Source of the DNA: Dehalococcoidales bacterium
GTDB taxonomy: Bacteria; Chloroflexota; Dehalococcoidia; Dehalococcoidales; RBG-16-60-22
Assembly: GCA_030603605.1 (NCBI GenBank)
Contig: JAUVXN010000004.1
Location: forward strand, 1-30,723
DNA: 30,723 bases
Direction of reading: 5' to 3'
Part shown: positions 1,859-20,442 of the stretch, piece by piece
Layout: every line of letters starts with the position of its first letter
How positions within the stretch are numbered: position 1 is the stretch's first letter
The notes under the pieces: generated by a model
What the model saw: the letters and a program-made list of their open reading frames with translations, nothing else
Databases searched by the model: none
What the model was told of the DNA's origin: nothing
Program-made: the position numbers and the translations under genes

Positions 1859-1890
1859 GAAGCAAAATCGATTATGGAGGGATGAATAAC

Positions 1891-3093
1891 ATGAGTCCTA
1901 TAAAAAATTTGACAGAAAAACGCCGGATGCCCAGGATCGGAAAGCTCCATCTTGGCATCAAGGTCACCAAAAACAAGGCGGGGAAGGAATGCGCCCCTTA
2001 TCCGCGAGCCGTTGACTACTTTGTGTACCCCGAGGCTGACGCCCCGGGTGGTGAGGTACTGCCCCAACTGGTCAAAGAATATGGGGAGAAACCAAAGAAA
2101 TTGCCAATCATATTCCCCCTCGAAGATGAAGAGGCCATCTGCAGCCAGTATTATCGTTGCTACACCAGGAGCCGCGGTCTGGTATGCCGTGGTGATGGCG
2201 AAATCTGTATGCGCATACTAGACACCAAAACCGGGTGGCTGCCGACTAAAGATACTACCGAAACGAGCATGAAAGAGTTGCCGTGCCAGGGCAGGGAATG
2301 CCCCGATTATGCCGGCGGCCAGTGCCGCGAAGTAATGAACCTACAGTTCATGTTGCCCAAGATAAGCGGCTTTGGCATCTGGCAGATAGACACCAGCTCT
2401 ATTAACAGCATCCGGAATATCAACTCCTGTCTCCAGATGATACGGGCAGTCTACGGCCGGGTGGCTATGGTTCCTCTGGTGTTGGCACTGGAGAAAATGA
2501 CGGTAACTCCACCGGGTGGTACCAAAAAGAATGTATTTGTTCTGAATATCCGCTCTACCGATAGCCTGATTCAGGCTGCTATCAAAGCGCAAATGTCGCC
2601 ATTGGAGTTAGTCATCGGGAAAGCTGGCACCGAGCAGGCCGAAGCTGACGTTGAAACATTATGGCCTCAGGATGAACAGGACCGAAAACTAAGCGAAGAG
2701 GAAGCAGCTGAGCGCATGACCCCTGACGAGATAGAGACCGCCCAAGCTGAAGAGGAACTATTTGGGGATGCGGAACATCCCGGCACTGGGGAAGCCCCAC
2801 TGACTCCGCCGGCTAAACCAGCAAAGACCACAGCCCTAACCGTGCCAAAACCAGCGCCGGCGCCGAAGCCAGTTGAAAAAGCCGGTTTCATATCCCTGGA
2901 GTGGCTGAAGGAATCCCTGAAAACTCTGCAAAAAGCCGGGATTAAAGCCTATTCCAGAGCGAACATACTCTCGCATCTCAATGCGGTAACCAGAGGGAAG
3001 GATGAGACTATAGTAGAGGCAGTGGCTAAACTTGATAAAGCGCAGGCTGAGGAGTTTGTCAAAAGGGTCCAGGATGCACTGGCAATGTTGTAG
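1891..3093 (+). CDS. Gp3-like recombination directionality factor family protein
   Basis: 400 residues from the ATG at 1891; an ATG at 1882 is in frame, but GGAGGG ends at 1881, so only 1891 has normal spacing. Residues 16-110 show the pattern I associate with phage Gp3-like directionality factors: KLHLGIKV, then AVDYFVYP, EYGEKPKKLPIIFP, and QYYRCYTRSRGLVCRGDGE. Cys at 84, 90, 99, 106, 132, 137 and 145 may bind metal. In phiC31-like phages such proteins bind a serine integrase and turn it towards excision; relatives in other phages may instead serve replication. An acidic then Pro/Ala/Lys linker (about 250-330) leads to a separate helical domain of about 65 residues. No integrase gene is in the window, so partner and role are inferred. 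Confidence 0.65.
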   Translation: MSPIKNLTEKRRMPRIGKLHLGIKVTKNKAGKECAPYPRAVDYFVYPEADAPGGEVLPQLVKEYGEKPKKLPIIFPLEDEEAICSQYYRCYTRSRGLVCRGDGEICMRILDTKTGWLPTKDTTETSMKELPCQGRECPDYAGGQCREVMNLQFMLPKISGFGIWQIDTSSINSIRNINSCLQMIRAVYGRVAMVPLVLALEKMTVTPPGGTKKNVFVLNIRSTDSLIQAAIKAQMSPLELVIGKAGTEQAEADVETLWPQDEQDRKLSEEEAAERMTPDEIETAQAEEELFGDAEHPGTGEAPLTPPAKPAKTTALTVPKPAPAPKPVEKAGFISLEWLKESLKTLQKAGIKAYSRANILSHLNAVTRGKDETIVEAVAKLDKAQAEEFVKRVQDALAML

Positions 3094-9188: not shown

Positions 9189-9770
9189 ATGCCAGTATTG
9201 AAAAATAGCAGACATGAAAAATTCGCCCTTGCTCTCTTCAAGGGCATGAGTCAGAAAGACGCGGCACTCGAGGCAGGATATAAGCCGTCAAGGGCTGAAG
9301 TAACAGCTTCAGAGCTAGTAAGGAATAGTAAGGTTTGGGGTCGAGTTAAGGAGCTACATGGCGAGGCTGTATCCGAGGGCATTATGACGGTCCGGGAGCG
9401 GAAGGAAAAGCTCTCTGAGATAGGCAGGGGGAGCCTACCCGACTTCATGACCGAAGAGGGTATCAAGGTAAACAAAGACTCCCCTAATGTTGGTGCTGTT
9501 TCTGAGGTGACTACTGTGACGAAGGTGTTTCACAAGGGGGGTCACCCTGTAGTCATCACCAAGCTGAAAACTCATCCACCTGTGCCGGCCATTGATTTGC
9601 TAAACAAGATGGAAGGTGAATACCCTGCCAGCAAGCTGGAACTTATGGGTAAGGGTGGTGGACCCATAGAGGTAGAGCATGACGCTAAAAACTTATCCGA
9701 CGACGAGCTCGTTGAAATTATCAAGCGCAGACGCAGCCGAGGAGCTATTAAAGAGGCGCCAAGCTCGTAG
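9189..9770 (+). CDS. terS: Terminase small subunit
   Basis: 193 residues. The N-terminus (NSRHEKFALALFKGMSQKDA, then AALEAGY, then VTASELVRNSKVWGRVKEL) is the Terminase_2 helix-turn-helix domain that binds the packaging site and recruits the large subunit. A middle beta region (about 85-135) and a conserved acidic end (LSDDELVEIIKRRRSRG) follow; the end probably contacts the large subunit. Its 3' end overlaps the large-subunit gene by 92 bases. Ribosome binding site GGCGGTGAG. The regulatory hairpins lie immediately upstream. Confidence 0.88.
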   Translation: MPVLKNSRHEKFALALFKGMSQKDAALEAGYKPSRAEVTASELVRNSKVWGRVKELHGEAVSEGIMTVRERKEKLSEIGRGSLPDFMTEEGIKVNKDSPNVGAVSEVTTVTKVFHKGGHPVVITKLKTHPPVPAIDLLNKMEGEYPASKLELMGKGGGPIEVEHDAKNLSDDELVEIIKRRRSRGAIKEAPSS

Positions 9771-11142
9771 AAACCTAGTGCCCTTTTGCCAATACACGAT
9801 GCCTAATTATCAGGGCGCGACCCATCTTGCATCACTGGCCGAGGCGTTGGAAGCCATAGAGCGTGGGGAGCTGAAGCGGCTCATTGTGATTATTCCCCCC
9901 AGGCACGGCAAGAGTGAGAAGGTATCCCTCCGCTTCCCATGCTGGTATCTGGGGAAACACTCAAAGGATTATATAGTCCAAGCCGGCTATGCTGAATCCA
10001 TAGCCCTGGCACACTCCCGCCAGGCGAGAGACATCTTCATATCCCAGGAGGTGACGAAGTTATTCCCCTCGGTACACCACCGCCCAGAGAGACCCGGGCA
10101 GGAGATAGTGCTTCCCGAGCGCCAGGCAGCCCATGAGTGGGGTACCAAGCAGGGCGGCTCTTATTATGCAGTCGGCATCGGTGGCGGTCTAACTGGCCGG
10201 GGCTTCAATATCGGGATTATCGATGACCCGGTGAAGGACGAGGAAGAAGCAGCCAGTGCGATAATCAGAGAGAAGGTCTGGGAGTGGTATCAGAAAGTCT
10301 TCAGGACCCGAGCAGAGCCAGATGCTGCCATTATAGTGGTCATGACCAGGTGGCACCAGGATGACCTTGTTGGCCGGCTCTTGAAACTAGCGCGAGAAGA
10401 CCCTACCGCCGACCAGTGGAAAGTCCTGCACTTCAGGGCTATAGAGGACGGGAAAGCACTCTGGCCGGCGAGGTATCCCATGCCGGCGCTAGAGAAAATC
10501 AGGAGCAGTATCGGCGGGCGGGCTTTCACTGCATTATACCAGGGGGAGCCCACAGTTGCTGAAGGCCAGATAATCAAGCGGGAATGGTGGAAGTATTATA
10601 GAGAACGTCCAAGCTTCCTGAGGGTAATACATAGCTGGGATACCGCCTTCAAGGAAAAGGCTCAGAATGATTACTCAGTCTGCACAGTTTGGGGGGAAGC
10701 CCAGACTGGCTATTATCTCCTGGGCGTGTGGCGGGCGAAGGTTGAGTTCCCCGAGCTGAAGCGGGTGGCTATCGCTCTATATGAAAGAGACCTGCCTAAT
10801 GTGGTGATTGTCGAGGATAAGGCGTCAGGGCAGTCGCTAGTCCAGGAGCTGCAGCGCAATACCCGGATACCGGTGCTGCCGGTTAAAGTAGATAGAGACA
10901 AGGTTGCCAGAGCTTATGCAGCCACGCCGATGATAGAGGCCGGCAAAGTCTTCTTACCAGAGAATGCGCCTTGGCTATTTGACTATATCGAGGAGCTGTC
11001 AGCCTTCCCCAATGGCGAATACGACGACCAAGTGGACAGCACCACGCAGGCACTATCCTTTATGCGAGGACCCGGGGAGCCGGAAGAGGAAATTGTGGTT
11101 TATGATTCGATGGAAGCAGTCAGGGAATTGGAGCTGATATGA
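9679..11142 (+). CDS. terL: Terminase large subunit
   Basis: 487 residues from ATG 9679, preceded by GAGGT six bases upstream. ATPase: Walker A-like PPRHGKS (73-79), Walker B IGIIDDP (178-184), coupling motif MTRWH (222-226). Nuclease of RNase H fold: HSWDTA (Asp321), VEDKASG (Glu379/Asp380), EYDDQVDS (Asp449/450/453). This is the motor and nuclease that translocates and cuts DNA at the portal. All key residues are present and the length is normal. It ends ELELI in an ATGA overlap with the inserted gene at 11139; that junction sequence is repeated before the portal gene. Confidence 0.95.
   Translation: MTLKTYPTTSSLKLSSADAAEELLKRRQARRNLVPFCQYTMPNYQGATHLASLAEALEAIERGELKRLIVIIPPRHGKSEKVSLRFPCWYLGKHSKDYIVQAGYAESIALAHSRQARDIFISQEVTKLFPSVHHRPERPGQEIVLPERQAAHEWGTKQGGSYYAVGIGGGLTGRGFNIGIIDDPVKDEEEAASAIIREKVWEWYQKVFRTRAEPDAAIIVVMTRWHQDDLVGRLLKLAREDPTADQWKVLHFRAIEDGKALWPARYPMPALEKIRSSIGGRAFTALYQGEPTVAEGQIIKREWWKYYRERPSFLRVIHSWDTAFKEKAQNDYSVCTVWGEAQTGYYLLGVWRAKVEFPELKRVAIALYERDLPNVVIVEDKASGQSLVQELQRNTRIPVLPVKVDRDKVARAYAATPMIEAGKVFLPENAPWLFDYIEELSAFPNGEYDDQVDSTTQALSFMRGPGEPEEEIVVYDSMEAVRELELI
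11128..11142 (+). repeat. 15-bp direct repeat, left copy (terL end)
   Basis: TTGGAGCTGATATGA is exactly repeated at 11566-11580, 438 bases later. This copy contains the last codons and stop of terL and the ATG of the inserted gene at 11139. The matching bases end sharply on both sides. Confidence 0.8.
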
Positions 11143-11565: not shown

Positions 11566-11580
11566 TTGGAGCTGATATGA
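11566..11580 (+). repeat. 15-bp direct repeat, right copy (portal start)
   Basis: Exact copy of 11128-11142. Here it supplies the ribosome binding site (TTGGAG) and the start codon of the portal gene. Joining the two copies would restore a direct ATGA-type overlap of terL and portal, so the 438 bases between look inserted. Confidence 0.8.
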
Positions 11581-12980
11581 AGGACAATGATGCAATTCGT
11601 TTACGAGAGCTTGCACCACAGGATGAGCTGGCCCTAATCATGCGAGAAGCTCTTGTCAGTGTTGAGGCTGATTTAGCTCTTGAAGACGAGGGCTGGATTA
11701 ACCTCAGCCAGGGCACCGGCGATGTCATCACCGCTCAAGCACGGATTATAAACCTGAAGCTATCCCGGCTCTTTTCTGTTAAAGACCCCTTAGGGAAACA
11801 GGCTATTAGGCTTTGGACTGACTATACCTTCGGGACCGGCATAACATGGAGCATGGAAGATGAGCCAGCGAAGAAGGTGCTTGAGGGCTTCTGGGATTCA
11901 AAGGCAAACCAAGCCGTGCTGTCAGCTCGAGGGCAGCGCAAGTCGAGTGATAAGTTGCTGGTTGATGGCGAGGTGTTCTTTGCCATCTTCCTGGGAGCGA
12001 AGGGCGAATCCAAGATTAGGCGGATTGACCCGCTGGAGATAGACGAGATAATCACCGATCCTGACGACATCGAGGATGTGCGCTTTTACCGCCGGAAGTG
12101 GACGGATAGACAGGGCAAGCCCCATGAGACCATATACCGCAGCACGACCAACATCAAAGGCGTGGCTACGCTGGATATGCATGGGAAGCCCGTTGAGAAG
12201 ACAGATGATGCCCTGATTTATCACTTGACCTATAACACTACCAGCCAGCGCGGGAATCCCTTGCTACTGCCGGCACTAATCTGGATGAAATACCATACTA
12301 AATTTTTGGCTAGTCGCATAGCAGTTATGCTGGCAATAGCCAAGTTTGTTATTAAGAAGAAGGTCAAAGGCGGGCCGGCGGCTGTAGAAGCTATTAAGGC
12401 GGTGACCCACGGAAAAGAACCGGCAGCCGGCTCTGAGATTATAGAGAATTTGGGCGTGGATACCACGGTAATGAAGCAGGAAACCGGCGCCAAGAATGCC
12501 TATGACGATGGCAGGATGATTAAGCTGATGATTTGTGCTGCTGTTGGGATTCCCGAGCAGTATTTCGGGGACATCTCAATAGGCAATCTGGCCACGGCTA
12601 AGACCGTGGAACTCCCCATGATGAAGATGTTTCAGTCCTATCAAGCTATTTGGAATGACGTTTATCAAGATATAGACGAGGTTATCCTGGAGCATAACAA
12701 TATATCACCTGACAAGTGGTATGTCGATAGGGACTTCCCGGCAATAGCGCCGGCGGATGTAGCCCAGATAGCTCTATCGTTAATGAATATCATCGGAGTT
12801 ATGCCGGCATTTGCTGATTCACCAGATGTCCAGCAAATAGCTATGCTGGCACTGGGTGTGAACGACCCAGCAGAGGCGCTGGAGCAAATGGAGAAGGCAG
12901 CCGAGGCAAATCCCTCAGTCGCCTTGACCAGGGCACTCAAGCAGTTCAGGGAGGCAATAAGGAAAGGAGCAGAGAAATGA
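11577..12980 (+). CDS. Portal protein
   Basis: 467 residues directly after terminase (apart from the insertion). The N-terminal part has the portal pattern of RLWTDYTFGTGITW, DGEVFFAIF, RIDPLEID and DVRFYRRKW; residues about 225-245 (GNPLLLPALIWMKYHTKFLASR) form the conserved crown/stem helix. A later region (VGIPEQYFGD, LATAKTVELPMMK) and C-terminal helices are typical of this portal type. The portal forms the dodecameric ring through which DNA passes. Length and order are normal. Its stop overlaps the next ATG. Confidence 0.9.
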   Translation: MKDNDAIRLRELAPQDELALIMREALVSVEADLALEDEGWINLSQGTGDVITAQARIINLKLSRLFSVKDPLGKQAIRLWTDYTFGTGITWSMEDEPAKKVLEGFWDSKANQAVLSARGQRKSSDKLLVDGEVFFAIFLGAKGESKIRRIDPLEIDEIITDPDDIEDVRFYRRKWTDRQGKPHETIYRSTTNIKGVATLDMHGKPVEKTDDALIYHLTYNTTSQRGNPLLLPALIWMKYHTKFLASRIAVMLAIAKFVIKKKVKGGPAAVEAIKAVTHGKEPAAGSEIIENLGVDTTVMKQETGAKNAYDDGRMIKLMICAAVGIPEQYFGDISIGNLATAKTVELPMMKMFQSYQAIWNDVYQDIDEVILEHNNISPDKWYVDRDFPAIAPADVAQIALSLMNIIGVMPAFADSPDVQQIAMLALGVNDPAEALEQMEKAAEANPSVALTRALKQFREAIRKGAEK

Positions 12981-13215: not shown

Positions 13216-13644
13216 ATGCTGTACCAAAAAGACTGTCCAAAGTGTAAAGGGGTTGGCTTCCAGGAATATGAAGCTGGCTTAATCCAAGTGGCATGCTCAG
13301 AGTGCAACGCCACCGGGAAGGTTCAGCAACCTATCCCCCTGACGAAACCGGGGCAATACTTCTGTGTCCTGTGCGAGAGTGCCCACAAGGAAGATAGCAA
13401 GCTGGGGGAGAGCCACCTGCAATATAAGGCTGAAGTGCCGACCATCGGCGAGATAATGCGGCAGCCTGGTGATTATATCCCACCCGAGGAAGTGGAGACA
13501 CTAGAGCTACCAAAAGACTTAGAAGAGGCACTGAATGAAGACACAAGTATTGGAGGAGCTGGACCAGATAATCAACCTGCTGGAAGCGGAGATACCGGCC
13601 AATCCGGCCAGTCCAGCGAATCAGAGACTGCAGAAAAGGCGTGA
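13216..13644 (+). CDS. Zinc-ribbon protein with DnaJ-like CxxCxGxG motifs
   Basis: 142 residues, ribosome binding site AAAAGGAG. CPKCKGVG (Cys7, Cys10) and CSECNATG (Cys27, Cys30) form a DnaJ-type zinc ribbon; a third pair FCVLC lies near residue 50. The C-terminal third is a disordered Gly/Ser/Gln/Glu tail whose DNA overlaps the next gene by 110 bases in another frame. The ribbon may help protein folding or contact the portal; there is no direct evidence. Confidence 0.6.
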   Translation: MLYQKDCPKCKGVGFQEYEAGLIQVACSECNATGKVQQPIPLTKPGQYFCVLCESAHKEDSKLGESHLQYKAEVPTIGEIMRQPGDYIPPEEVETLELPKDLEEALNEDTSIGGAGPDNQPAGSGDTGQSGQSSESETAEKA

Positions 13645-14971
13645 GAGGGAGCTGGTCAAATACTTCAAGTCCCTGGCAGATGCCTTCCCTTATGGGAAGC
13701 TGGAGAGGATATATAACCGCTATGTAAAGGAGAGCCTCGGGTCCGAGACCCGGGACATCCTTGACCCGCTGCTGAGTGCCTTTGAGAAGAAGCTAGAAAC
13801 TCAGGTCAACGGTCATCTGGCGGGGGTCTATATCGCCGGCCAGGCTGAGATGATTACCTGGGGGAAGACCAAAGCGGGCATACCGATTGCCTACGAGGGA
13901 CCGCCTATTTCGGCTGCTATAGACTGGGCGGAGAAGCAGGGCGCCATGCTGGTCACCCAGATGGACACAGAAACCAAGCGCCGGCTGGCTCAAACTATCA
14001 GCGATGGGATAGCGAATAAGCGGGGAGTACCCGGGTTGGCCAGGGACATCCGTGGCGACTTTGCCAATATGAGTAAGTACCGCAGCCAGCTGATAGCCAA
14101 GACCGAGACAAGGCAGGCATTATTCCAGGCTTCACGCGATAACATGGAGGCTATGGGCATAGAGGGCAAGGAATGGGTCCTCGGGGCAGGTGGTGCTGAG
14201 GGCAATTGTGATGAGTGTATTGCCAATGCCGCTGTGGGGATTATACCAGTAAATCAGGAGTTCCCAATCCCAGAAGGGGATATTCACCCCGGCTGCACAT
14301 GTGCCATATCTCCGGCGAGATTGCCAGCAGCAAAGGCTACTGAGTCTATTGAAGAGGTTATGACCCCCAAGGATTGGAAGGCTGAATATAAGAAGGGGAC
14401 GCCTCACTGGGCAAAGGATATGGAGCCGTCAGTATTCGCTAAGGAGTTCGTCAAGGTAATGCAGGGCCACGAGACTGATACTGATAGTGTCCTGGAGGTG
14501 GGGTGTGGTAATGGAAGAGACTCGATACTGTTTGCCCAGGCGGGGATTAAGGTAACGGCTATCGACATAGTGCCTGAAGCCGTGGAGTTGGCTAAGGAAA
14601 ACGCCGAGAAAGCCGAAGTGCATATCGAGTTTAAGGTGGCCAATGTTGAAAAGCTGCCCTTTGAGGATGCCACCTTTGGCGCCATCTTCACTTTATCGGT
14701 GCTACATTCAACTGACCTCAAGAAGTCACTGCCGGAAGTAACCCGGGTCCTGAAGCCTGAAGGAGTAGCATTTATCTACATCTACGGTGATACCCAGTTC
14801 AAGAGCGGTAAGCCTAAAGAGGATACGATTAAGTTTAACGATTACATTAAGACATTAAAGGATTTGGGGTTCGAGATACTCAAGTCCTATACCGAGCAGC
14901 AAGACGAGTATGACCAGGTGAACGAAAAGCATCGCATCTTCGTGGTGCTGCTACAGAAAGGAGCTAGTTAA
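13535..14971 (+). CDS. MuF-like minor head protein fused to a SAM methyltransferase
   Basis: 478 residues. Residues 1-260 are a phage Mu gpF-like head protein: long helices, LIAKTETRQALFQASR (186-201), then CDEC (225-228) and HPGCTC (251-256), the diagnostic Cys/His end of the domain. After a short linker, residues about 280-478 form a class I methyltransferase: motif I VLEVGCGNG (319-327), Asp344 at the end of strand 2 (AIDI), ANVEKLPFEDATFGAIF (369-385) and RVLKPEG (404-410), as in Methyltransf_11/25. Both parts look complete and are in one unbroken frame. MuF proteins sit at the portal and may enter the cell; C-terminal enzyme or toxin fusions of MuF are known. The target of methylation is unknown. 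Confidence 0.82.
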   Translation: MKTQVLEELDQIINLLEAEIPANPASPANQRLQKRRERELVKYFKSLADAFPYGKLERIYNRYVKESLGSETRDILDPLLSAFEKKLETQVNGHLAGVYIAGQAEMITWGKTKAGIPIAYEGPPISAAIDWAEKQGAMLVTQMDTETKRRLAQTISDGIANKRGVPGLARDIRGDFANMSKYRSQLIAKTETRQALFQASRDNMEAMGIEGKEWVLGAGGAEGNCDECIANAAVGIIPVNQEFPIPEGDIHPGCTCAISPARLPAAKATESIEEVMTPKDWKAEYKKGTPHWAKDMEPSVFAKEFVKVMQGHETDTDSVLEVGCGNGRDSILFAQAGIKVTAIDIVPEAVELAKENAEKAEVHIEFKVANVEKLPFEDATFGAIFTLSVLHSTDLKKSLPEVTRVLKPEGVAFIYIYGDTQFKSGKPKEDTIKFNDYIKTLKDLGFEILKSYTEQQDEYDQVNEKHRIFVVLLQKGAS

Positions 14972-15210
14972 TGGCTAAGCATGAGGCAGTCAAAATAGAT
15001 GGGCGCTGGGTGTGCCAGGCGAAGTGCTGCCCGCATCGCATAACCGGTGAAGGGTGCTACGGGTGCAAGCTCGGGAAGGTGAGCTTATCCTGTGAGAATA
15101 CCGGCTGCCGATGGAATATCGAGGTAGCACTTGGTGACCGCAGATGTATGTGCATGGATGTCCAGCTCGATGCAGATGGCCATTGCATCGGGGAGCGCCG
15201 GCGGAGTTAG
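14971..15210 (+). CDS. Cys-rich 79-residue protein
   Basis: The ATG shares a base with the preceding TAA. Ten Cys occur in pairs: VCQAKCC, GCYGC, SCENTGC, RCMC and HC, so one or two zinc or iron-sulfur sites are likely. No membrane segment or signal is seen. It sits between MuF and the capsid protease but does not resemble a known structural protein. Function unknown. Confidence 0.55.
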   Translation: MAKHEAVKIDGRWVCQAKCCPHRITGEGCYGCKLGKVSLSCENTGCRWNIEVALGDRRCMCMDVQLDADGHCIGERRRS

Positions 15211-15234: not shown

Positions 15235-15402
15235 GTGAGAGGAGCATTAGCCAAAAAGCTTCGCCAGATTCAGCGGCGAAACTGGCGAGAGTATCTGAGT
15301 GAAATAAAGGAGTTGCCATTTAGCGTCCGATGGCGGTTAGCTTGGTGGCTTGTATTCGGCAAGAAGATTGAGCACCAAAAGGGTGGGAAACTTAGGAGGT
15401 AA
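15235..15402 (+). CDS. 55-residue basic phage protein
   Basis: GTG start with AAAAAGGAG four bases upstream. It is very basic (KKLRQIQRRNWREYLSEIKE) with LPFSVRWRLAWWLVFGKK, a pattern I recall from small conserved phage proteins of unknown role located in head operons. Its last codons (CTTAGGAGGTAA) provide the ribosome binding site for the protease gene. It might associate with membrane or nucleic acid. Confidence 0.5.
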   Translation: MRGALAKKLRQIQRRNWREYLSEIKELPFSVRWRLAWWLVFGKKIEHQKGGKLRR

Positions 15403-15406
15403 TATC

Positions 15407-17410
15407 ATGCCATATCCGAATGAACATGCTTGTAGAATTAGAGACCCCGGGGAATTCAAAGCTGGGAGTTTCAGACGGATTGAGAGGGGTGAGGGTAGCG
15501 AGAAAATATCAATTATTATCGGCAGACCTAAAGGCAAGACCACTACGGCCACACAGGCTTATCGCTATGATAAGGAAGTTTGGACGGAGAAACGGGCTCA
15601 TACTCATTGTACGGAAAATGACGGTGCTTTTGAAGCTGCTACCAAAGAAAGCAAGGAGGTGACTATGGCTGAGAAGTTGAGTTATGAAAACAAGAAGACG
15701 ACACTAGATGCCGCGCTACATGCCCACCTTGGCTTGGCAAAGGATGACTATGCGTATATAGAGGATTTTACCGAGACAGAGATATTTTACAACTGGGACC
15801 GCCAGTCCTATAAAGCCAAGTATTCCATTGCTGAAGATGAGGCCGTTACAATAGGTGATCCTGTGAAGGTTGCTCGGCAGATTACCTATAAGGCGATGGA
15901 AGCGCTGCAGTCCAGATACTCTGAGATAATCCAGGAAGCAGGCAAGCGCAATGCTAAGCTGGATGCTACCCGGCTGAAGAAGATTGTGGAACTGTGCCAG
16001 GAACTTCTATCATCTGAAGAGCCGGATGAGGAGAAGGCAAAGGAAGCCGTGAAAGAGGCTGACAAGGCTCTGGCTTGGCTGATGGAGCAAGCAGTGATGA
16101 AGACTGAGGATGGCGTGAAATTCCCTGCCGCAGCTTATGCTTATGTGGGGGATCCGGAGAAGTCCACAACCTGGAAGCTCCGGCTCTGGGAAGACCCGAC
16201 CAAGAAGGTTACCCGGGCGCAGTTGGGCAGAGCAGCGGCCGCCCTGAGCCCCGGCGGATTCAGGGGACAGAAAGTAGCCATACCCTCCGCTGATTTACCT
16301 GCGGTAAAACGGAAGATACGGGCCGAGTACCGCAAGCTGGATGTGGAAGATGAGGATATCCCCAGGTGGGTGAAGGAAGTCGAGACGCGGGAACTGCTCT
16401 TGAGCTATGTATCGCTCACCGAAGCCAAGATTGACAAGGGCAGGGCTGCACTGCGCATCATTGAGCCTGGCTTCAATGAAACTGAAGACCGATACTATCC
16501 TGCAGAAATGCTGAAGCGTGATTATAAAATATTCGAGGGTCAGAAAATGTATGCTGACCACCCGACAGAGACCGAAGACCAAGAGCGTCCTGAGAGGTCG
16601 ATAAAGGACTGGGTTGCCACACTGTCAGAAGTAACGTGTGATGAGAACGGCGTTGTTTCCGGTATTGCCGAGATTATCGAGCCGTGGATGATGCAGAAGT
16701 TAGCCGCACTGCGGGAGAAGGGGATGCTATCAGAGATGGGCGTTTCCATCAATGCAGTAGGCAAGGCTTCAAAGGACACCATTGACGGCAAGGAAACTCA
16801 GGTGATAGAGAAACTCATAGCATGTAACTCAGTTGATTTTGTGACTGAGCCTGGTGCCGGCGGAGTAGTCACACTCTACGAATCAGACAGTAACCGTAAT
16901 ATAGACCTGGTGGAACTGGCGACCTTAAGGGAGCGGCGCCCTGACTTAATCAAGGCTATTGAGGCTGGGGTCAGGGCAAAAATAACCACGGAGGTTAAGA
17001 AAGCTATGGAGAACGAGGAACGAATCACGGAATTAGAGGGTCAGATTGCGACTCTGACCACGGAACGCGATGCCCTCAAGGAAGCTGCTGAGAAGGCGGT
17101 GAAAGATGCGGCAAAGGCTGAAGCACAAGCCACCATCAAGGAGGCTGTAGACAAGGCTGAGCTGCCCGATGCTGCTAAACAGCGACTTATTGAGAGGTTC
17201 AAGGATGCCGAGACTGCCGATGGGATTGCGGAAGCGATAACAGCTGAGGCTGATTATATCGCCAGGCTCGCTGAGGCAGGCAAGGTGAAGGGCTTAGGCC
17301 CCAGTGGGCCGGCCTCGGACGAGGACAAAAAAGCCCTGAGAGAATCCTTCAAGAAGCTGCATCCGGATTGGCCGGATGAGCAAATCGAGACTGCTGTGGC
17401 AGGCAGGTAA
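15407..17410 (+). CDS. Capsid maturation protease with C-terminal scaffold
   Basis: 667 residues from ATG 15407, which has AGGAGG at the right distance; an upstream in-frame ATG at 15350 lacks one. Residues 1-86 are a small module (PNEHACRIRDPGEF ... HCTENDGAFEAA) I associate with phage head operons. Residues about 110-325 are an accessory region. Residues about 330-490 form the prohead protease: YADHPTE (His385), LSEMGVSINAVG (Ser447) and SVDFVTEPGAGG are the likely His, Ser and acidic elements. From about 535 a coiled coil (ITELEGQIATLTTE) and helical end resemble an internal scaffold. The protease processes scaffold and capsid before DNA packaging. A second start is likely at 15665. Confidence 0.8.
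   Translation: MPYPNEHACRIRDPGEFKAGSFRRIERGEGSEKISIIIGRPKGKTTTATQAYRYDKEVWTEKRAHTHCTENDGAFEAATKESKEVTMAEKLSYENKKTTLDAALHAHLGLAKDDYAYIEDFTETEIFYNWDRQSYKAKYSIAEDEAVTIGDPVKVARQITYKAMEALQSRYSEIIQEAGKRNAKLDATRLKKIVELCQELLSSEEPDEEKAKEAVKEADKALAWLMEQAVMKTEDGVKFPAAAYAYVGDPEKSTTWKLRLWEDPTKKVTRAQLGRAAAALSPGGFRGQKVAIPSADLPAVKRKIRAEYRKLDVEDEDIPRWVKEVETRELLLSYVSLTEAKIDKGRAALRIIEPGFNETEDRYYPAEMLKRDYKIFEGQKMYADHPTETEDQERPERSIKDWVATLSEVTCDENGVVSGIAEIIEPWMMQKLAALREKGMLSEMGVSINAVGKASKDTIDGKETQVIEKLIACNSVDFVTEPGAGGVVTLYESDSNRNIDLVELATLRERRPDLIKAIEAGVRAKITTEVKKAMENEERITELEGQIATLTTERDALKEAAEKAVKDAAKAEAQATIKEAVDKAELPDAAKQRLIERFKDAETADGIAEAITAEADYIARLAEAGKVKGLGPSGPASDEDKKALRESFKKLHPDWPDEQIETAVAGR
15653..15667 (+). 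promoter_or_regulatory. Internal ribosome binding site and second start in the protease gene
   Basis: AAGGAGGTGACTATG: a full Shine-Dalgarno match (15653-15661) before an in-frame ATG at 15665, which is Met87 of the long protein. It begins immediately after the small N-terminal module. Initiation here would give a 581-residue protein without that module. Confidence 0.6.
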
Positions 17411-17440: not shown

Positions 17441-17914
17441 ATGGTTGGTGGCCAACCTGATGAAGTCGAACTAAACCATTACTACGACCCTACCGGAAAG
17501 GCGGGTGACGAGATTTCTTCTACCTATGAGGGTAGGCATGTCTATGTTCAAGAGATCGTGCTTATCCACGCCGACCCTGGCGATGGCTTGGTTGACAAAG
17601 GTCAGCCAGTGGCATTCTGGGAAGGGGTAGGCATAGCCATGAAATCCGCATCCTCAACAGGCGAGAATGTGCCTATTGATACGGAAGGTATATGGCGGGT
17701 TTCGGTAGTGGCTACTGCTGCAATAGCGATAGGGCAATCTCTTTTCATAGATGTCTCAGGTGTGGTTACTGATGACCCCACAAATGCCCAGGCTGTATTC
17801 GGTTATTCTATGCAAGCTATGGGCATAGGAACTGAAGTCATAGCAGTCAAAGTCCACTGGATGAGCCTTAATTGGTTGTGGCTCCTCTTTTGGTGGTTCG
17901 GACAACAACCATAA
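17441..17914 (+). CDS. DUF2190-like capsid decoration protein with Trp-rich tail
   Basis: 157 residues. EISSTYEGRHV, VDKGQPVAF, IDTEGIWRVSV and IAIGQSLFIDVSG are the pattern of DUF2190-type viral structural proteins, small beta-barrels that decorate capsids. Residues 1-140 are similar to the start of the next protein. The last 16 residues (SLNWLWLLFWWFGQQP) are strikingly hydrophobic and aromatic and absent from its paralogue; they could insert into the capsid surface, a membrane or an assembly partner. Ribosome binding site GGGAGG. Confidence 0.7.
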   Translation: MVGGQPDEVELNHYYDPTGKAGDEISSTYEGRHVYVQEIVLIHADPGDGLVDKGQPVAFWEGVGIAMKSASSTGENVPIDTEGIWRVSVVATAAIAIGQSLFIDVSGVVTDDPTNAQAVFGYSMQAMGIGTEVIAVKVHWMSLNWLWLLFWWFGQQP

Positions 17915-17935: not shown

Positions 17936-18895
17936 ATGCCAGCTTTTGGAGTTTATCCGATAGCAGATGCCCTTAATCCTGGAGAAGAAATCTCATCTAC
18001 TTATGAGGGCAGACATGTCACTGTTTTAGAGAGTGACCTAATTCATCCTGTGCATGTTCCGGCAGATGTTCTTGTGCATAAGGGTGACCCGGTAGTCTTT
18101 GGAACTACGGGATTGCAGGCTGTTGGTGTGGCATTCAAGAGTGCCGTTCTCAATACTGACCTAATTGCCATTGATACTGAAGGTATCTGGAACCTTGATG
18201 TTGACCCAACTGACGACCTTGGTAATAGCGATGTAGCAGGTGGCGATTTACTTTATATCAATGTCACCAATGCTGTTATCAGTAAAATCAGAAACACAGC
18301 CACTCAGATACCCTTTGGCTATGCTCTTGGCATCATTACAGCACCAGGAGTAGAAGCTATAGCAGTCAAAGTTCACTTTGACCCTAGTCTTGACACTAAT
18401 GATGTGATGTTCAAGACAGTTGCGAGTGGTGCTTATTCCTATGGCAAACAGTGGAGAGGACTGCTAGAAGGCGGCGAGTCGACAGGTGTTGCTGGTGTAT
18501 TCTATGCTGAACTCGATGGTGACCAGAGCGGTCATATTTATGGCTGGAAAGCATGGAATGAAATCCAAGCTGCTTTCGTGCCTGATGGGTCTCTAGTTGT
18601 AGCGGGTGAATTTGGTATGTGGGATGGTCTCGGAGCTAATATGGCTGCTGCTAGAGTGGTTCTACTTCAGCTTCAGTCAATCCTTGCTGCTGCCCCAAAT
18701 AGCTTACATATCTTTAGGGTCAATGTAGCACAGGCAGTCCCAACCGTAATTAACGCCATCTTTGCCGCAGCTAATCCAAATTCAATCGGAGTGGATGCTG
18801 GTAAAGCAGGGAATAACAAATATGGTGTTATTCCTTTAGCTGATGTTGTAGGCCCTGGTGTACTCTATGTTGAAGTTTTTGACACAATCACCTAA
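17936..18895 (+). CDS. Two-domain capsid decoration protein (DUF2190-like plus extra domain)
   Basis: 319 residues. Residues about 14-155 repeat the previous protein (EISSTYEGRHVTV, VHKGDPVVF, IDTEGIWNLDV, AIAVKVHF). Residues about 160-319 are a second domain not found there, with YGKQWRGLLEGG, GVFYAELDGDQSGHIYGW and a long Ala/Leu helix, ending GVLYVEVFDTIT. It may be a surface domain binding sugars or another capsid protein. The gene is somewhat richer in A/T and in NNT codons than the terminase genes. Ribosome binding site AGGAGG. Confidence 0.65.
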   Translation: MPAFGVYPIADALNPGEEISSTYEGRHVTVLESDLIHPVHVPADVLVHKGDPVVFGTTGLQAVGVAFKSAVLNTDLIAIDTEGIWNLDVDPTDDLGNSDVAGGDLLYINVTNAVISKIRNTATQIPFGYALGIITAPGVEAIAVKVHFDPSLDTNDVMFKTVASGAYSYGKQWRGLLEGGESTGVAGVFYAELDGDQSGHIYGWKAWNEIQAAFVPDGSLVVAGEFGMWDGLGANMAAARVVLLQLQSILAAAPNSLHIFRVNVAQAVPTVINAIFAAANPNSIGVDAGKAGNNKYGVIPLADVVGPGVLYVEVFDTIT

Positions 18896-19272: not shown

Positions 19273-20442
19273 ATGGAACTTATGAAACTCATGGAAGACT
19301 GGAAAGGCTATGTCAGCGTCCGGGACGTTCGCCGGGGCGAGGGATATGAGCAGAAGCTACGGGAGACCATCGACCTGCTCAGTAATGCCCGGGGGATGCC
19401 TGCTTTCAGACAGGAATACCTGATAAGGGAAGCCTTGACTACATCTGATTTCTCTCTCCTATTCGGGGATGTCCTGGATAGGCAAGTGCTGGCAGGCTTT
19501 AAGGCGGTGGACCCGGTGTGGAAGCTCTTTACCCGGGCAGGCACGGTTAACAGGCTCTTCCCCCATGTCGGTGGCAAGAGATTTGCCATCCACGGCGGGA
19601 ATGCAGTGCTACCACTGATAGGAGAGAAAGGCGAGTACCTGGCTCGAAACAAGAGTGAAGTCAAGTATGATGTCTATGCCTACAAGCGCGGTGCTCAGTT
19701 CGATATCTCCTGGGAGTCCCTACTGGCTGACGACCTGGGTGCCCTGAAGGATACCCCTGAAGTCTTTGCCTGGGCGGCTATCAACACCGAGCACTGGTTG
19801 GTGTCCAATACCTATGCCGACGACACCGGCACTCATCCAGGAAACCTATACGATTTGGGAACGGCCAATGAGGTCAACTTGGGCGATTTGCCCCTGACCA
19901 TCCGAAACGTTGAGCGGACAGTAGCAGCCATGCACATGTTCAGGGATAGGAGCCTGACAATTCCTATCAAGAACCGGGCTAAATATCTGGTTGTGCCCCC
20001 GGCCCTGGAGTTCACGGGCAGGCAAATCCTGACTTCGGCCAACAAGATGTGGGTAGAGCATATCACTCGTGCCGGATACGACCCCAGAGAGACTCAAATG
20101 CCATACCCGACAACCAATGTCATTGCCCAGTATGGCTTGCAGCTGGTAGTTGACCCCTGGCTGCCGATTGTGGACACGACTAATGGCGACCATTCCTGGT
20201 ATCTATTCGCAGCGCCAAGTGATGTAGCTGCAATGGAAGTTGACCATCTCACAGGCCATGAGCGACCGGAAATCTGCATGAAGGCAAGCGATAAGGTAAC
20301 TCTCGGCGGCGGGCCGATTGGCCCCATGAGCGGCGACTTCGCCACGGACAACATTCTGTACCGCGTGAGGATTTGCGTCGGTTGCAACAAGCTAGATTGG
20401 CGAGCGACCTATATGCAGAAGCCAGGCGTGGCATCACCGTAA
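19273..20442 (+). CDS. Major capsid protein (HK97 fold)
   Basis: 389 residues. The sequence has the HK97-fold capsid pattern seen in Mu gpT-like and related proteins: an N-terminal helical arm, DFSLLFGDVLDRQVLAGFKA, then a mid region IGEKGEYLARNKSEVKYDVYAYKRGAQFDISWESLLADDLG, and an ending with ITSNV-type strands (NVIAQYGLQLVVDPWL; DNILYRVRICVG). It forms the icosahedral shell. Location after protease/scaffold and before connectors is diagnostic. A strong RNA hairpin lies just after the gene. Confidence 0.85.
   Translation: MELMKLMEDWKGYVSVRDVRRGEGYEQKLRETIDLLSNARGMPAFRQEYLIREALTTSDFSLLFGDVLDRQVLAGFKAVDPVWKLFTRAGTVNRLFPHVGGKRFAIHGGNAVLPLIGEKGEYLARNKSEVKYDVYAYKRGAQFDISWESLLADDLGALKDTPEVFAWAAINTEHWLVSNTYADDTGTHPGNLYDLGTANEVNLGDLPLTIRNVERTVAAMHMFRDRSLTIPIKNRAKYLVVPPALEFTGRQILTSANKMWVEHITRAGYDPRETQMPYPTTNVIAQYGLQLVVDPWLPIVDTTNGDHSWYLFAAPSDVAAMEVDHLTGHERPEICMKASDKVTLGGGPIGPMSGDFATDNILYRVRICVGCNKLDWRATYMQKPGVASP

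Follow-up and report, generated by a model that had tools for sequence, protein, structure and literature searches.

The window, by which we mean the entire analysed stretch of 30,723 nucleotides from a Dehalococcoidales contig, contains phage genes for terminase, portal, decoration-like, capsid, tape-measure, DnaC-like and replication-initiation proteins and for an HNH endonuclease. This phage may be temperate because positions 1882-3093 encode a Gp3-like recombination directionality factor (E 6e-52). No integrase was matched among the window proteins scanned by family, which represent about half of the likely genes, and the integrase may lie outside the window. The genes at 17441-17914 (decoration or cement protein) and 17936-18895 adjoin each other, and each hits the counterpart of the other in relatives (L001). 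The head region contains the following features.

9679..11142, + strand: terminase large subunit
11577..12980, + strand: portal protein (phrog_10963)
13535..14971, + strand: MuF-methyltransferase (MT) fusion gene, 478 aa
13535..14323, + strand: MuF head-morphogenesis part, residues 1-263 (relatives without the arm stop at 262-265 aa)
13535..13723, + strand: MuF residues 1-63, the MT-bearing segment in the 'short forms', in which MuF is split at this point
14324..14359, + strand: short linker, residues 264-275
14360..14968, + strand: predicted class I methyltransferase arm, residues 276-478
14971..15210, + strand: small Cys-rich partner gene, 79 aa
15350..17410, + strand: head-maturation-protease match at residues 365-645 (phrog_15531, E 2e-19; best match phrog_19463, function unknown)
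19273..20442, + strand: capsid protein (Pfam Phage_capsid_4)

In the fusion gene, a MuF protein that extends to about residue 263 and matches phrog_2468 at its N-terminus (E 5e-20) is followed in frame by a complete MT at residues 276-478. The same fusion recurs in eight further database proteins, which rules out the possibility that it reflects an assembly error or a frameshift. The MuF-MT fusion in the window is therefore real, and the in-frame arrangement that the original prediction had proposed is confirmed. The accompanying proposal that an MT arm on MuF is undescribed agrees with our literature search, in which neither this arm nor its Cys-rich partner was found described, most subscription journals and all supplements being outside its scope. 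A tblastn search for isolated phages in 50,697 phage records returned nine partial hits, all below 60% identity and none covering 80% of the query; the other carriers are phages that environmental DNA alone has revealed. The structure model of the fusion protein had a mean pLDDT of 58 over its whole length, the MuF half being poor (nine sequences in the alignment).

Several observations concern the MuF part and its relatives. P0008 (290 aa) has a MuF that is 91% identical to that of the window and an MT reduced to its last ~20 residues, an in-frame loss of the MT core. An ADP-ribosyltransferase arm is found on the same MuF in P0012, and MuF arms with an HExxH motif were recognised by eye in P0020, P0024, P0088, P0106 and P0119; matches of the first four to metallopeptidases were weak and fell short of the Pfam cut-offs. 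In P0038, P0078 and P0108 the same MuF bears a further arm, which has an HNHP...SxxD motif and no Pfam match; judging by eye, we take it to be JAMM-like. P0017 contains an intein-like insert in MuF exactly between the HP(G/N)C and CTC/CRC parts of a motif (Pfam Intein_splicing, E 3e-6, below cut-off), and an intein-like insert was seen by eye at the same motif in L006 (7458-8870). Positions 13216-13644 of the window encode a 142-aa ORF with Cys pairs that shares 110 nt with the start of MuF but is read in a different frame; a homologue of this ORF overlaps MuF in L002 too.

The Rossmann-type fold, glycine-rich motif I and acidic motif II assign the arm to the class I SAM-dependent methyltransferases, for which SAM binding and methyl transfer are predicted. 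Among 68 MTs of the family, W281, H291, W292, G323, G327, D329, D344, H391, Y417, D460 and H466 are 97-100% conserved. The arm is matched best by domains of general or small-molecule MTs and only weakly by profiles that bear the name DNA methyltransferase (phrog_954, E 6e-6; phrog_11787, E 8e-6). Family profile scans of the window fusion protein found no helicase domain, so that it lacks the combination of methylase and SWI2/SNF2 helicase that characterises DarB-type DNA adenine methylase-helicases. On the strength of the weak profile matches and the lack of a helicase we provisionally rejected a DNA methyltransferase identity. DNA, one of the substrates originally envisaged, is thus a less likely one, and the arm is probably of a non-DNA type. 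Bud23-Trm112 entries were present among the fold matches.

The small gene downstream of the MT belongs to a Cys-rich family whose members are 68-105 aa long (among 30 members); an alignment of 101 members has ten invariant columns, seven of which are Cys. Among 36 testable MT loci, 35 have this gene after the MT; the exception, L061, is an unfused MT from a Falkowbacteria bin. Loci were testable if the MT scored at least 95 bits, near-copies counted, and sequence was present beyond it; L011, L017 and L037, which end inside the MT, were not counted. Conversely, a scan with the Cys-rich family alone returned 47 contigs, near-copies counted, all 47 of which have an MT before the Cys-rich gene, and 16 of these are absent from the loci of the MT scan. 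Cys-rich similarity begins -3 to 36 nt after the MT stop in most cases and 50-243 nt after it in L035, L036 and L038-L040. DUF1540 gave weak Pfam matches to 65 of the 101 members (E up to 0.1, best 1.2e-4) and none to the member in the window, and Trm112 was absent from the Pfam matches of the family. A model of the Cys-rich protein (pLDDT 75) gave no significant PDB match. Of 393 genomes in the class of the L059 genome, only that genome itself has the gene, and a search for it over five handles found it in the three known carriers. The bin names Dehalococcoidia (L059), Bathyarchaeota (L060) and Patescibacteria (P0169) are labels only.

To describe the proteins that bear this MT, we used 45 MT loci including the window, which were located by a profile built from the short forms. 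Most near-copy contigs had been removed beforehand, L024-L026 (close to L023) being retained, and the family counts leave out loci with weak MTs of at most 75 bits (e.g. L043-L058, L062-L138) as well as L042 (45 bits, its MT truncated where the contig stops). Fusion could be decided in 43 of the 45 loci, contig ends cutting L032 and L169. In 40 of these 43 the MT lies in frame behind at least 44 residues; only in L021, L061 and L181 is it not fused. The anchor is a head protein in 34 of the 40 fused loci: MuF in two (the window and L059), MuF residues 1-63 in four (L006, L007, L008, L011), a portal in 27 and a protease-like protein in one (L035), whose best match is named major head protein with a maturation protease profile second. 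The portals fall into five groups, namely phrog_10963 (L010), phrog_2662/12 (15 loci, and L031 by DNA similarity to L029), phrog_113 (L023, L038, L041, and L024-L026 by similarity to L023), phrog_146 (L034, L166, L175) and phrog_30703 (L036). L036 is, among the portal copies scanned, the only one with MuF-type matches on the same chain. In L010 and L017 the MT sits at the end of a portal of the kind found in the window, not on MuF. The N-terminal part had no PHROG match in five fused loci (L018, L040, L060, L150, L153), and L039, whose anchor was outside the PHROG scan, was counted apart. Precomputed Pfam annotation identified P0138 and P0161 as ChaB-domain carriers of the MT. Free copies that keep the Cys-rich partner occur in another kind of phage (L181, L182); judging by eye, we take their neighbours to be neck- and tail-like genes of T4-like or contractile-tail type. 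At L182 2361-3195, the genes adjoining the free MT and the Cys-rich gene appear by eye to be neck- and tail-sheath-like, as in a contractile-tail phage. The free MT of L021 presumably follows a terminase-like gene.

We looked for start codons between codons -20 and +15 relative to the join. Of the 40 fused loci, 12 contain no ATG in this interval and nine contain no ATG, GTG or TTG, so that in these nine the MT can hardly be made other than as a portion of the head protein. In 17 of the 40, the position equivalent to window residue 276 has no ATG. A Shine-Dalgarno-like word precedes only eight of the starts listed in this interval, in seven loci (L020, L024, L026, L034, L165 twice, L173, L178), and L165 is the sole locus where such a start is the MT's own ATG. 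A separate internal start, although possible in some loci, was therefore rejected as an explanation for the family as a whole.

The MT and its partner are shared between loci with different anchors. Altogether 144 locus pairs with different anchor labels align at the module, and none of these alignments extends more than 30 nt past either end of the module, as given by the MT start and the Cys-rich stop. Among the longest are window-L010 (853 bp, 68%), L008-L010 (840 bp), L007-L153 (826 bp), L029-L034 (812 bp, 69%) and L034-L178 (809 bp). In 18 of the 144 pairs other DNA is shared too, such as the terminase (L007-L013, L015-window), and some of these pairs are therefore related phages with the module in different positions. 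The 13 anchor labels require 24 changes on a tree built from 68 MTs, against a minimum of 12 and a shuffled mean of 44.8; with four coarse labels, 14 changes are required. This means that anchors are partly inherited and often exchanged, the long branches of L181, L061, P0199 and L035 being unsure. Taken together, alignments and tree indicate that the MT and the Cys-rich gene move as a unit among phages, changing their anchor.

The short forms comprise 19 MT proteins of ~267 aa in which only the first ~60 residues are MuF. In L006-L009, MuF(1-63) is followed by the MT, the Cys-rich gene and, as a separate ORF, the remaining MuF; in L002 and L005, which lack the MT, MuF is likewise divided near codon ~63, by other DNA. 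Portal and MuF form one chain in phrog_2662, and in several of the present phages the MT-Cys pair lies between them. A MuF ORF is next or next but one after the pair in seven of ten loci tested, L018, L021 and L023 giving no match. In L007 (7170-8640), the pair is flanked by 18-bp direct repeats with one mismatch, as seen by eye. A second ~21-bp repeat, corresponding to the start of the MuF rest, surrounds a further small ORF, and the repeats of this locus point to apparent serial insertions at MuF codon ~63. We rejected an intron as the identity of the cassette: it is nearly all coding, and the window, L006-L008, L010, L013 and L020 yielded no Rfam match at gathering score.

Conservation of the two genes was compared in 780 pairs of 40 loci. 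The Cys-rich identity exceeds the MT identity in 676 pairs (means 58% and 47%), and the two are correlated with a Spearman coefficient of 0.37, the pairs not being independent. These identities indicate that, when distant phages are compared, the partner is more strongly conserved than the MT. Selection was evaluated in 20 pairs, 13 of which had been chosen because their Cys-rich proteins were much more alike (76-91% identical) than their MTs (38-57%), with synonymous differences (pS) of at least 0.63. Of the 20 pairs, 12 had saturated synonymous change in the Cys-rich gene and 15 in the MT. Where computable, dN/dS was low (0.04-0.17 for the Cys-rich gene and 0.04-0.37 for the MT), which shows that purifying selection acts on both genes. 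In close pairs dN/dS was alike for both genes (e.g. 0.05 and 0.04; 0.07 and 0.08; 0.17 and 0.18).

The reading that we prefer, with a probability of roughly one half, is that what lies in the window is one copy of a mobile head-cargo module of two genes, encoding a non-DNA-type MT arm and a Cys-rich partner, which would be packaged, delivered and used on a target in the next host. Portal, MuF and maturation protease have a common site, the inside of the capsid or procapsid. Since the anchors share this interior and the MT is made fused to them, packaged cargo is favoured. The original prediction that the enzyme is packed in the head thus gains indirect support from the presence of the same MT on portals, on MuF and on a protein resembling a head protease, and from its standing alone in only three of 43 decidable loci; its delivery into the host is something that we infer. 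The original prediction overlooked the constant Cys-rich gene and the fact that the MT has many anchors besides MuF. The anchor would place the MT inside the capsid near the portal, and the Cys-rich protein may bind metal and stabilise, activate or target the MT, by analogy with Trm112. Portals remain in the capsid, so that a portal-anchored MT could be delivered only after cleavage, for which the protease is a candidate. A head maturation protease, e.g. the product of 15350..17410, might free the arm, which would then enter the host with the DNA and, at an early stage of infection, methylate a small molecule, a protein or an RNA of the host. Each of the ten downstream ORFs examined, which had been picked for their protease-like look, matched a profile named head maturation protease; in L034 and L173 this match is weak, with E about 1e-6, and another profile matches better.

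Other explanations would account for parts of these data. The MT arm could be a virion-delivered toxin of the MuF type, with the Cys-rich gene as the antidote in the producing cell or lysogen. The gene directly after the MT would fit this, as would the directionality factor-like gene of a possibly temperate phage, and precedents are at hand: a small ORF follows 89.4% of the 191 MuF toxin genes in the part of Jamet 2017 (PMC5576092) covered here, and Bxa and Apk2 are described as MuF toxins with adjoining immunity genes. However, a fast-diverging antidote would not be expected to be better conserved than its toxin, as the Cys-rich protein is in most pairs, even though dN/dS in close pairs is alike, and the free copies in another kind of phage keep the partner. 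We therefore regard this explanation as unlikely.

We judge it equally doubtful that the MT acts in place during assembly or in the virion, where its substrate would be a portal, neck or tail protein or an item bound to packaged DNA, and is never delivered. The 27 portal anchors among 40 suit such a role, and so would the free copies beside what we take by eye to be neck- and tail-like genes (L181, L182) or after a terminase-like gene (L021), as would the MuF protein gp7 of SPP1, which is complexed with the portal according to the part of Jamet 2017 (PMC5576092) covered here. Yet the anchors come from unrelated portal families with no obvious common substrate, and in 82 of the 120 MuF relatives listed MuF bears no arm, the MuF protein only being considered. 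Least probable, in our view, is a selfish cassette that lands at gene ends or domain boundaries of head operons, the fusion being a by-product of insertion. It would explain why the two genes travel together, why they interrupt MuF at codon ~63 (L006-L009) and separate portal from MuF where phrog_2662 relatives have one chain, and why in L007 an 18-bp direct repeat lies to either side of them (by eye). But no recombinase, nuclease or known ribozyme was found in the cassette, flanking repeats were seen in L007 only among L006-L008, the MT is nearly always in frame, and its catalytic-site residues are kept.

The head-cargo reading can be extended to a broader proposal, which we put forward more tentatively and consider possible rather than probable. 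The MT and a Cys-rich metal-binding partner would jump between unrelated phages as one ~0.8-kb unit, join an interior-facing head protein each time, and deliver partner-dependent non-DNA methylation into the next host, an early takeover undescribed for phages. One MT family found repeatedly on unrelated portals, on MuF and on a protease-like head protein offers a natural test of enzyme loading via fusion to interior head proteins, and with its constant partner it forms a defined pair of proteins amenable to production and assay. Should the enzyme be delivered, the activities that phages inject would come to include methylation of a host target, probably one other than DNA.

Among known systems, Trm112 is a small metal-binding activator of some cellular MTs. 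The present module would resemble the Trm112-activated enzymes in combining a class I MT with a small, putatively metal-binding partner; it differs in that those enzymes are cellular rather than virion-associated and that the Cys-rich family has no Trm112 Pfam match. The Alt protein of phage T4 is not known to be fused to a portal or MuF. Alt and the present MT would have in common that an enzyme is packaged in the head and injected, and they differ in chemistry and, as far as known, in the fusion. In the parts of Iyer 2017 (PMC5512222) covered here, Alt is described as an ADP-ribosyltransferase that is packaged in the head and injected, and MuF or portal proteins are fused to effectors, e.g. 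PBECR, 2H, RelA/SpoT, InPase and PRTase, that are thought to be packaged and injected. The window fits this polyvalent-protein theme in having an effector domain on MuF, as it is elsewhere on portals; unlike it, the methylase in those parts is a DNA adenine methylase tied to SWI2/SNF2, with no MT of the window type and no Cys-rich partner. The covered text of Zhang 2012 (PMC3482391) has 'methylase' once and 'methyltransferase' zero times. MuF toxins make up 191 of 1515 MuF proteins in Jamet 2017 (PMC5576092), from whose main text the words methyltransferase and methylase are absent; MTs are likewise not among the MuF toxin domains named in the part covered here. Bxa, as described in the part of its report (PMC11699363) covered here, is a MuF-ADP-ribosyltransferase with two immunity proteins. 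Like the MuF polymorphic toxins (Jamet 2017; Bxa, Apk2), which combine a MuF N-terminus, an enzymatic C-terminal arm and a small downstream gene in head operons, the window has an N-terminal MuF domain and a small ORF directly downstream (14971-15210). Unlike them, its enzyme is a predicted class I MT, the same arm also occurs on portals and on a protease-like protein, and the small gene belongs to one conserved family.
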